From contig NZ_RYFD01000002.1 in assembly GCF_004138135.1 (NCBI RefSeq), positions 62,001-126,000 on the forward strand: a DNA stretch of 64,000 nucleotides. The letters run 5' to 3'. This stretch comes from Candidatus Oscillochloris fontis (GTDB lineage Bacteria; Chloroflexota; Chloroflexia; Chloroflexales; Chloroflexaceae). Position 1 is the first letter of the stretch. Every line of letters begins with the position of its first letter. The translations under genes were made by a program, and so were the position numbers. The notes beneath the pieces were generated by a model. That model was not told the origin of the DNA. It searched no databases and saw only the letters and a program-made list of their open reading frames with translations. Shown here one piece after another: positions 24,711 to 28,294 of this stretch.

Positions 24711-24749
24711 GGGGCTAAACAGAATCCTTATGGCTCTCACCCCCATCCC

Positions 24750-25106
24750 GTAGGGGCGAAGCATCGCCCACCATGGAGCAGGGGAACCCGAACGAGGTTG
24801 GCGGGCGATGCTTCGCCCCTACACATGCCGGGTTCCCCCACCATGCCGGGTTCCCCGATCATCTCGTAGGGGCGAAGCATCGCCCACCATGGAGCAGGGG
24901 AACCCGAACGAGGTTGGCGGGCGATGCTTCGCCCCTACACATGCCGGGTTCCCCGATCATCCATCGCCCACCATGGAGCAGGGGAACCCGAACGAGGTTG
25001 GCGGGCGATGCTTCGCCCCTACACATACCGGGTTCCCCGATCATCCCTCGCCCGCCATGGAGCAGAGGAACCCGAATGAGGTTGGCGGGCGATGCTTCGC
25101 TCCTAC
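24750..25106. repeat. Four-copy array of GTAGGGGCGAAGCATCGCC-ended element
   Basis: Copies 1 (24750-24822) and 2 (24866-24938) are complete 73-base units with inverted ends GTAGGGGCGAAGCATCGCC / GGCGATGCTTCGCCCCTAC. Copies 3 (24962-25022) and 4 (about 25046-25106) lack the left end. Equivalent positions are spaced 116, 84 and 84 bases. CCGGGTTCCCC links the copies. The last bases of copy 4 (CTA) are the stop codon of the AmrS-like gene. Sequence identity between copies is very high, so they are recent. Confidence 0.92.
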
Positions 25107-26113
25107 GAGGACGATGTACGCGCCTTAAAGATCGAGAGTTGCAATTGCGGATCGTGGCCACACGTCTCACACATCCCATCCTTCATCCCAACTACACGCG
25201 CCATACCATTAACCCGCGTAATTAGCGTTGCCTGACACGCTGGGCAACGGGTGGTCTGATTTGCTTCGGTGGTATAGATGTAGTGCAGGCCATTCTCGTG
25301 GCCAATCCGGCGCGCCCGCACCACCGACGAGGCTGTACCACTTCCCGCATCGCCAGGAAGAAGATGCCAGGGGGTATAGGGGCCAAGAGTCGCCATGATC
25401 CACTCGACCAACTCGCGCAACTCTTCGGGGCTATCATTCACCCCATGGTGGATACGAGTCGTCACCTCGATATGGCAGTGATAACGGTCGTGCGCCTCAG
25501 CAATAATCGCGAGTGCATCGCGCCAGTTGGGGAGGCCACCTAGGCGAGTATAACTCGCATCACTAAAGCCACGCAGATCAAAACTGATCGCATCCAGGTA
25601 GGGGCCAAGCTCCTCAAGCGCTTCGGTCGTAAGGACGCCCGTCGTCACCAGTGCCGTCACGCGGCTAGAGGCGCGGCTGAGTTGGAGCAACGCCAGCACA
25701 TACTCGTGGGCTACGGCAGGTTCGCCATAGGCCCACACCACTCCTCGGCAGAGCCGTTCAAGGGCGAAATTGGCCGCACGCTCAGCATCAAGGCGGCGCT
25801 GCTTGGTCGGATCTTCGGGGATAGCCGCATAGGGACCACGTTGCTGATCCACTGTCGAGGCATAGCCCCAACTTCCGATGGCCAGCATCATGGTATCGGG
25901 GAAGAAATGCCACAAGCGATTATCTTCAATCGGGCAGATCGATGCCCCACTGATCATGCCATAGCCTAACAGGCTAATCCCCTCGTCGGTGGCAACCCGC
26001 ACCTGACAACGCCCGGTTTCACCCGGCCGCAAGGCACAACGCCATTGACATGCCGCACAGTGAAAGGCACCATCGTCATTGGGGGTGAGAAGTTCGGCAA
26101 GCGGTGTATCCAT
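25103..26113 (-). CDS. AmrS-like protein lacking the radical-SAM cysteines
   Basis: 336 residues aligned by eye with AmrS, the radical SAM enzyme of the AmmeMemoRadiSam system. The N-terminal metal motif CAACQWRCALRPGETGRC, the WHFFPDT segment, WAYGEPAVAHEYV, ISFDLRGFSDASYTRLGG, VTTRIHHGVNDSPEELRE and the C-terminal CPACQATLITR...MCETCG pairs are all present. Where AmrS has the Cys-x3-Cys-x2-Cys that holds the 4Fe-4S cluster, this protein reads IGSWGYASTVDQQRG with no Cys. The frame is intact, so it has probably been kept for another role, for example a SAM- or partner-binding protein. It is a single gene; no Memo or AmmeA partner is visible. Confidence 0.82.
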   Translation of the reverse strand: MDTPLAELLTPNDDGAFHCAACQWRCALRPGETGRCQVRVATDEGISLLGYGMISGASICPIEDNRLWHFFPDTMMLAIGSWGYASTVDQQRGPYAAIPEDPTKQRRLDAERAANFALERLCRGVVWAYGEPAVAHEYVLALLQLSRASSRVTALVTTGVLTTEALEELGPYLDAISFDLRGFSDASYTRLGGLPNWRDALAIIAEAHDRYHCHIEVTTRIHHGVNDSPEELRELVEWIMATLGPYTPWHLLPGDAGSGTASSVVRARRIGHENGLHYIYTTEANQTTRCPACQATLITRVNGMARVVGMKDGMCETCGHDPQLQLSIFKARTSSS

Positions 26114-26138: not shown

Positions 26139-26267
26139 GTAAATGTTCACACGTCTCCTACGGAAGCCCGCTTTGCTGTCACGCTGAGCGAAGCGAAGCG
26201 TCCCCGACCGAGACCCTTCGCTGCGCTCAGAGTGACGATGCTCTTTACTCCAAGTGTGAACAGTTAC
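26139..26267. repeat. GTAACTGTTCACAC-ended element with TCACGCTGAGCGAAG insert
   Basis: GTAAATGTTCACAC (26139-26152) and GTGTGAACAGTTAC (26254-26267) are inverted ends with 13 of 14 matches. The interior holds a different palindrome, TCACGCTGAGCGAAG against CTTCGCTGCGCTCAGAGTGA. The element fills most of the gap between the AmrS-like gene and lepB. Confidence 0.8.
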
Positions 26268-26404: not shown

Positions 26405-27142
26405 ATGGATCAGACACCTTTACGTCGCCGGATCGGGATTGATGCGTCGGCTCCACCCCCACCAGAACCACCAAGTGTCAATAGTACCTGGGAACAACTA
26501 GCTGATCAGGTACCTGAAGATCAGCCACAAGTGCGGGTTCGTTCGTTTGTGCGCGAGTTGCTGGAAACAGCAATCTTTATTCTGCTCATCTTCTTTATTG
26601 TGCGCGGGATCGTGCAGAATTTTAAGATCGAAGGCACCAGTATGGAGCCAACGATGCACACAGGTGAATATATCCTAGTGAATAAGCTGATCTACTTTCA
26701 CTTCGATATCAATGCGCCTTTACGCCTCTTTCCAGGTCAAGAGGCGATTCCCCAAAAGATTATCTACCCCTTTCACCAGCCACGACGCGGCGATGTGGTG
26801 GTCTTTGAGTATCCCCGCGATGTGAGCAAGGACTATATCAAGCGCGTGGTCGGCCTACCGGGGGACACCTTGGAGATCCGGGATGGCAAGGTCTTTCTGA
26901 ATGGGATCGAACTGATCGAACCCTACCTCGATAGTCCAACCGCATGTATGAGCAGCCGCGTGTGTGGCAATGGGCCATTTGTCGTTCCTGAGGGGACGAT
27001 CTTTGTAATGGGTGATAATCGCAACAACAGTAGTGATTCACGCGAATGGGATTCGCTACCCCTCGACCGGGTCGTGGGCCAAGCGTGGCTGATTTACTAC
27101 CCGATCAATCAGTGGGGTCTCGTGCCTCACCACGAATATTAA
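26405..27142 (+). CDS. lepB: Signal peptidase I
   Basis: 245 residues with AAGGA six bases before the ATG. One N-terminal membrane helix (about 56-73, TAIFILLIFFIVRGIVQNF) precedes KIEGTSMEPTMHTGEYILVNK, whose Ser is the nucleophile. RGDVVVFEYPRDVSKDYIKRVVGLPGD carries the general-base Lys, and VMGDNRNNSSDSREWG-like sequence is box E. The enzyme cleaves Sec and Tat signal peptides at the outer face of the membrane. About 50 polar, proline-rich residues before the helix form a cytosolic tail. A GT4 gene begins 3 bases after the stop, followed by tatA, so export functions are grouped here. Confidence 0.95.
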   Translation: MDQTPLRRRIGIDASAPPPPEPPSVNSTWEQLADQVPEDQPQVRVRSFVRELLETAIFILLIFFIVRGIVQNFKIEGTSMEPTMHTGEYILVNKLIYFHFDINAPLRLFPGQEAIPQKIIYPFHQPRRGDVVVFEYPRDVSKDYIKRVVGLPGDTLEIRDGKVFLNGIELIEPYLDSPTACMSSRVCGNGPFVVPEGTIFVMGDNRNNSSDSREWDSLPLDRVVGQAWLIYYPINQWGLVPHHEY

Positions 27143-27145
27143 GCT

Positions 27146-28294
27146 ATGCGTATTGCTGTCAATGCCCACCTGTTGGCCCATACCCGCTCCTTCCGCCGCG
27201 CCGGGGTCTCCCACTATATCGAACAGACGCTGCTGCATCTAGCGCAGATCGATCAGCACAACCAGTACGATATCTATACCACCCGTGGCCTCGATAATGC
27301 CGCGCTGGGGCTACCGGCCAACTTTCATGTGCGCCCTAGCCACCTGCCAACGATCAACCCGCGTATTCGGATTCCTTGGGAACAGTTCCTGGCCCCCACC
27401 CTGCTGCGCATGACCAAGGCCAGCCTCTACCACGGCGCACTCAATGTGGTGCCCTTCAACTGCCCGGTGCCGAGCGTAGTGACCATCCATGATCTGGCGT
27501 TTATTCGCTTCCCACAGACCTTCCGCGCCTACAACCGCACCTATCTCGATTTCGCCACTCGCCTGAGCGCCCGCCGCGCCACCCGCATCCTGGCGGTCTC
27601 CGAGCATACCAAGCGCGAAGTAGTGGGCATCCTGGGGGTTCCCGCCGAGCGCGTGGTGGTGACGCCGAATGCCGCACGGTCCCACTTTCGCCCGCCACCA
27701 CCCGCCGAACTGGAGGCGTTCCGTACCCGCCACGGGCTGCCAGAGCGCTTCGTGCTCTATGTGGGGACGCTGGAGCCGCGCAAGAACCTCACCACGCTGC
27801 TTGATGCCTACGCCGAAGTTACGCGCCGCTTCCCAGATGTGCCGCTGCTGGTCGGTGGGGGCAAGGGCTGGCTCTATGACACGATCTTTGAGCGCCTCGA
27901 ACACCTCGGTCTGCGCGAGCAGGTCAAGTTTGTTGGCTACCTGGACGAGGAGGAGTTGCCGCTCTGGTACGCAGCCGCAACCGTCTTCGCCTTCCCCTCG
28001 ATCTACGAGGGCTTTGGCATGCCGCCCCTGGAAGCGATGGCCTGTGGCACCCCAGTTGTCACCTCGAATACCTCCAGTCTGCCAGAGGTCGTGGCCGACG
28101 CGGGCCTCATGGTTGATCCGCGCAGCGCCGATGCGCTCGCCGCTGCGCTCTGCCGCGTCCTGGGCGATCCCGATCTTCACGCCGACCTGCGCACACGTGG
28201 GTTGCGCCGAGCAACCCACTTCACTTGGGCCACGACGGCGGAGCGCACGCTGCGGGCGTATGAGCAAACGGTGTTGACACCCCCCCCCTACTAG
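27146..28294 (+). CDS. GT4 glycosyltransferase
   Basis: 382 residues of GT-B fold. RIAVNAHLLAHTRSFRRAGVSHY starts the acceptor domain, VVTIHDLAFIRFP is the usual connection in WbaZ/mannosyltransferase-like GT4 proteins, ERFVLYVGTLEPRKNLTTLLDA opens the donor domain and FPSIYEGFGMPPLEAMACG is the Glu-x7-Glu motif. It is soluble or peripheral, adding a sugar from a nucleotide donor to a lipid-linked or polysaccharide acceptor; the donor is unknown. It begins 3 bases after lepB, probably in one transcript. The last codons overlap the promoter of tatA. Confidence 0.9.
   Translation: MRIAVNAHLLAHTRSFRRAGVSHYIEQTLLHLAQIDQHNQYDIYTTRGLDNAALGLPANFHVRPSHLPTINPRIRIPWEQFLAPTLLRMTKASLYHGALNVVPFNCPVPSVVTIHDLAFIRFPQTFRAYNRTYLDFATRLSARRATRILAVSEHTKREVVGILGVPAERVVVTPNAARSHFRPPPPAELEAFRTRHGLPERFVLYVGTLEPRKNLTTLLDAYAEVTRRFPDVPLLVGGGKGWLYDTIFERLEHLGLREQVKFVGYLDEEELPLWYAAATVFAFPSIYEGFGMPPLEAMACGTPVVTSNTSSLPEVVADAGLMVDPRSADALAAALCRVLGDPDLHADLRTRGLRRATHFTWATTAERTLRAYEQTVLTPPPY

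Follow-up and report, generated by a model that had tools for sequence, protein, structure and literature searches.

The minus strand of the window (the whole stretch of 64,000 nucleotides of Candidatus Oscillochloris fontis DNA that was analysed) encodes a protein, here called pseudo-AmrS, which is probably a maintained pseudoenzyme of the radical SAM superfamily, non-catalytic, derived from AmrS by one loss of the cluster cysteines and acting as a binding protein. Its status as a maintained pseudoenzyme is strongly supported; the evidence on what pseudo-AmrS binds is weak. The frame starts with ATG at 26113 and ends with a stop at 25103-25105, and its 336 codons were, as originally described, free of internal stops. 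Features of the gene and its neighbours are collected in the table.

Table. Positions in the window of pseudo-AmrS, its sites and the adjoining genes
Feature	Position	Strand	Basis
pseudo-AmrS CDS	25103..26113	-	336 aa + stop; family profile match and orthologues
N-terminal Cys4, C19-x2-C22-x3-C26-x9-C36, metal-type site	26006..26059	-	Invariant in 64/64 pseudo proteins and all Cys-bearing relatives
Remodelled ex-cluster-binding loop, residues 82-96 (WGYASTVDQQRGPYA)	25826..25870	-	Y84/V88/Q91 at Cys columns; entropy shift
GEP motif, residues 130-132, equivalent of AmrS N/G-E-P	25718..25726	-	P132 conserved in both clades
C-terminal Cys4, C290-x2-C293...C315-x2-C318, zinc-ribbon-like	25160..25246	-	Invariant in 63/63 full-length pseudo proteins
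Signal peptidase I (lepB), divergent neighbour	26405..27142	+	PF10502; adjoins pseudo-AmrS in most families
GT4-type glycosyltransferase after lepB	27146..28294	+	Pfam; synteny conserved within order

The top family match of the window protein was TIGR04337 (AmrS), with an E-value of 1.1e-46 and a score of 159.4 bits, which falls short of the curated threshold (220 bits). Six pseudo-AmrS proteins from other families scored 122-195 bits against this profile and the Cys-bearing proteins tested scored 279-605 bits. Homology to the radical SAM core was found with PF04055 (Radical_SAM), for which the window protein passed the cut-off of 29.5 with 38.4 bits. TIGR04337 is of the NCBIfam type 'hypoth_equivalog' and gives AmrS no name beyond that of the system's radical SAM member, and the open-access literature yielded incidental mentions of AmrS only. 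The window protein resembles AmrS in full-length homology over 310 residues, in both Cys4 sites and in an identical order of motifs, but differs from it in the absence of CxxxCxxC. Where AmrS binds its cluster, by SxGCNxxCxxCQN, the window protein has SWGYASTVDQQRG. Since the alignment of this segment is gap-free for the window protein, Y84, V88 and Q91 could be assigned to the three cluster-Cys columns, all of which are thus substituted. The original prediction of an AmrS-like protein devoid of its cluster cysteines was exact in its coordinates.

Orthologues were sought among relatives and throughout the order, class and phylum. About 68 of the 158 class genomes carry one, as counted from match lists and with one contig-edge fragment included, and 64 distinct sequences from seven family-level groups of one class were compared. 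The CxxxCxxC triad was kept neither in the window protein nor in any of the 64. This clade-wide absence is the opposite of orthologues that all keep the cysteines, the outcome which the original prediction had named as speaking against it. The residues that replace the triad differ by family. A motif GWGYAxxxDQxRGxY is shared by f1, which comprises the window together with Oscillochloris and Candidatus Chloroploca (loci L032-L042), and f4, which we take to be Roseiflexaceae. The f3 proteins, presumably of Herpetosiphonaceae, carry a GSWGTPFPxHHD-like segment, and G-F/Y-GTP, GGYGxNxP and GSSGGNAHSIH were found in f2, f5 and f8, respectively; f6 has GGWGNNLACRH, in which one of the three cysteines is left. 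Mean column entropy of the loop spanning residues 82-96 was 0.98 bits in Cys-bearing AmrS, where no other segment compared was lower, as against 1.81 bits in pseudo-AmrS, the second highest. Segments other than this loop were mostly comparable in entropy, or lower (more conserved) in pseudo-AmrS.

A maximum likelihood tree (LG+C20+F+G4) was calculated from 82 proteins, 48 pseudo and 34 Cys-bearing, and midpoint-rooted for drawing. One branch separated the pseudo from the Cys-bearing proteins, with support of 100/100 and presence in 100% of 200 bootstrap trees. Because the pseudo proteins form a single clade, and with the Cys-bearing side taken as ancestral, one loss of the triad suffices. The Cys-bearing proteins scoring best against a pseudo-AmrS profile were AmrS proteins from elsewhere in the phylum (L127-L146), many of them from small genomes that we guess to be Dehalococcoidia. 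These share the CxxCQW N-terminus, W24, H214 and W238 with pseudo-AmrS, but keep GCNxxCxxCQNW, and several of the loci examined have a Memo-AMMECR1 fusion as the adjoining gene. The genuine AmrS of Chloroflexales genomes (L063-L077), with its triad intact, is a separate and distant paralogue. The f6 pseudo-AmrS with the one remaining cluster cysteine (L113 5547-6572) adjoins Memo, and its genome, G087, holds further Cys-bearing AmrS copies (L120, L121 and L125) and a Memo-AMMECR1 fusion. The 11 small f4 genomes of genus g21 (G039, G058 and G073-G081; 1.7-3.6 Mb) gave neither a pseudo-AmrS match nor an LplA-type homologue, absences that are consistent with genome reduction.

Redundancy-reduced sets of both kinds of protein were then compared column by column and residue by residue. 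Eighteen positions are near-invariant in Cys-bearing AmrS (DKKPGCNCCQNWDKFPTN), among them the triad, the QNW behind it, the EKKP motif and the D-x-K strand. Judging from their proximity in sequence to the cluster motif, and from radical SAM enzymes generally, these positions probably form one pocket. The pseudo proteins listed keep 0-4 of the 18 residues, compared with 14-18 in the Cys-bearing proteins listed, and the window protein keeps one, so that the conserved catalytic region of AmrS is not preserved in it. In contrast, both Cys4 sites of AmrS are retained in every sequence that spans them (see table; the count for the C-terminal site is 63 instead of 64 because one sequence is truncated), and VTTRIHHGVNDS is present in the window protein. 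The original claim that all other features of AmrS remain thus holds for the N-terminal Cys motif, GEP, VTTRIHHGVNDS, the C-terminal Cys pairs and the scaffold, but fails for the catalytic pocket, since the surroundings of the cluster have been replaced as well. R39, A57, R106 and R123 are present in 64/64 pseudo-AmrS proteins, whereas AmrS, near and far alike, varies at these positions; they therefore reflect new constraints. Leucine 151 of AmrS is an arginine in 57 of the 64. H214, W238 and Y172, on the other hand, are ancestral and not gained, as most near Cys-bearing proteins share them, even though they are fixed in pseudo-AmrS.

Selection was assessed from dN/dS (Nei-Gojobori) among orthologue pairs. 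Overall values for pseudo-AmrS were about 0.01-0.16, made up of 0.02-0.06 in genus g9, 0.04-0.06 in genus g23, 0.01-0.04 in f3, about 0.1 in f5 and, among congeners of the window, 0.08-0.16 where dS was measurable. In pairs with the window sequence itself synonymous sites were saturated, and pN/pS was 0.14-0.17. The genuine AmrS of genus g23 gave 0.02-0.10; selection on pseudo-AmrS is thus of the same order as on the enzyme. The view of a dead radical SAM fold kept under selection, put forward from the single sequence, was hence borne out by the missing triad and the low dN/dS together; the regulatory or structural role proposed with it is a candidate. Clade-wide loss of catalytic residues is combined here with purifying selection, which is what defines a pseudoenzyme, and the retention of all eight Cys4 cysteines alongside these dN/dS values marks pseudo-AmrS as a maintained pseudoenzyme and not a decaying gene. 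Loss of the site under such strong selection suggests a binding or structural task in place of radical chemistry.

A ColabFold model built from a 12-sequence alignment had a mean pLDDT of 56, with residues 1-134 below 50, and was usable only from about residue 136, which was too little to locate the N-terminal Cys4 or the pocket. Foldseek searches with this partial model returned radical SAM structures first, with viperin (6b4c) at an E-value of 1.6e-6 and the pyruvate formate-lyase activating enzyme (3c8f) lower, in agreement with the assignment made from sequence. The latter enzyme is also the nearest solved relative by sequence, the match spanning the core only and lying outside the N- and C-terminal Cys4 modules of pseudo-AmrS; in contrast to pseudo-AmrS, it is an active [4Fe-4S]/SAM enzyme.

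Our preferred reading is a binding protein that is stabilised by its Cys4 sites and has retained an interaction surface of the AmrS type. In an ancestor within this class, that of green filamentous bacteria and their relatives, an AmrS protein would long ago have lost its cluster-binding cysteines once, and the descendants would have been kept as a non-catalytic protein in which the partial TIM-barrel scaffold and the two Cys4 metal sites, the metal probably being zinc, serve as a rigid platform. With the radical-SAM [4Fe-4S] cluster gone and the SAM-side pocket remodelled, no 5'-deoxyadenosyl radical should be formed, an absence of radical catalysis predicted from the residues lost. A binding or adaptor role would follow, most likely the binding of a protein, a nucleic acid or a small ligand once handled by AmrS or AmrA. 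Dead catalytic folds have been put to use in binding before: human Memo has been described as a dioxygenase homologue that binds a phosphopeptide in a 'vestigial active site' (title of Qiu et al. 2008, from the reference list of PMC11081632). Memo belongs, however, to an unrelated family that is absent from the window genome.

The main rival to this reading has the old SAM/substrate pocket reshaped, with newly fixed arginines at its centre, into a ligand-binding or a new non-radical catalytic site. It is compatible with a binding protein, and we regard it as possible though clearly the less probable account. The fixation of R39, R106, R123 and A57 in pseudo-AmrS, at positions variable in AmrS, speaks for it, and the three arginines together with R151 in most sequences suggest an anionic ligand; the new loop motif that f1 shares with f4 points the same way. 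This motif is not common to f2, f3, f5, f6 and f8, however, the fixed residues cannot be placed with a model of such low pLDDT over residues 1-134, and conservation alone cannot tell binding from folding. Iron-sulphur chemistry might instead have been relocated, the N-terminal Cys4 binding an Fe-S cluster in a redox protein or an unorthodox radical-SAM enzyme. The C-x2-C-x3-C-x9-C motif is invariant in every pseudo and Cys-bearing protein, its metal could be Fe-S, and ThiC and Dph1-Dph2 are described as non-canonical radical SAM proteins. AmrS, however, has the same Cys4 beside a normal triad, so the site is not a replacement for it, and the residues expected around a SAM-bound cluster have also gone, which makes relocation unlikely.

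A decaying relic, without present function and on its way out, would account for the lost active site, for the lack of a match in the 11 genomes of genus g21 and for the copy in genome G010, which is interrupted by a stop. Since nearly all of the roughly 68 genomes have intact frames, dN/dS lies far below 1, eight cysteines are invariant and new positions are conserved, we consider it very improbable. A local mutation, or a sequencing or assembly error, confined to this genome can be dismissed almost with certainty. Nothing was found in its support, and it is refuted by the absence of the triad from 64/64 orthologues, which share the loss and differ by family in the residues that replace it.

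The Cys4-stabilised binding protein that we favour draws its best clue from gene neighbourhood in f3, where AMMECR1 adjoins pseudo-AmrS on its downstream side in 9/9 genomes, with a gap of about 7 bp in L048. Only in f3 has AMMECR1 stayed next to the gene; in f6 the neighbour is Memo. The window genome encodes neither Memo (PF01875) nor AMMECR1 (PF01871), so that the three-gene AmmeMemoRadiSam system is not present in it, and a search for a paralogue found no genuine AmrS there. Regulation of a genuine AmrS partner was accordingly rejected for the window genome, though some relatives carry AmrS separately. The most widely shared neighbour is divergent lepB, found in f1-f4 and also in representatives of f5, f6 and f8; within the order it is usually followed by the GT4 glycosyltransferase, and this common neighbourhood supports orthology.

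Downstream context varies by family, and thus no pathway or single partner is supported. An LplA-type ligase gene lies downstream in f2, f3 and some f4, and gcvT-gcvH-gcvP as well in f3 and some f4. A functional link to lipoate or glycine cleavage was set aside and kept as a lead, since about 340-660 bp lie between these genes and pseudo-AmrS at the loci examined and the sole lplA-like match in the window genome is distant (27-34% identity) and unlinked. Downstream of pseudo-AmrS in f5 and f8, and partly in f6 (L114 7849-13316, L117 and L118), stand a Ser/Thr kinase with beta-propeller repeats, a PP2C phosphatase, a vWA protein and an FHA protein in the same orientation, a grouping that is TerY-P-like. 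It was rejected as functional context, as no Chloroflexales locus showed it as a set next to the gene. The downstream genes of the window itself, a DUF4147/MOFRL gene of glycerate-kinase type and hemD, are not common to other loci.

The open-access literature searched contained no report of radical-SAM pseudoenzymes kept throughout a clade, which is weak evidence of their absence. From a lineage in which only the chemistry was given up, one can learn which surfaces of AmrS count beyond catalysis, and the f3 pair of pseudo-AmrS and AMMECR1 offers a simple test of AmrS-AmrA binding without chemistry. For annotation, names such as 'radical SAM enzyme' would be misleading when given to pseudo-AmrS proteins.

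Repeats were observed on both sides of the gene. Between pseudo-AmrS and lepB, positions 26177-26250 hold a repeat-like element that contains GAGCGAAGCGAAGCG and an inverted counterpart; the 24-mer tested from it occurs once in the window. On the other side, positions 24744-25106 are occupied by a tandem array, with a period of 84-116 bp, of an interspersed repeat whose ends are palindromic (TAGGGGCGAAGCATCGCCC, found both ways round); this 19-mer has about 450 occurrences in the genome within one mismatch, and none when read backwards. The 3' end of the gene enters a copy of this repeat at 25087-25113, so that the repeat (TAGGAGCGAAGCATCGCCC) supplies the stop codon TAG with its opening three bases. 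The window protein ends in KARTSSS where close relatives end in K(Q/P)R.
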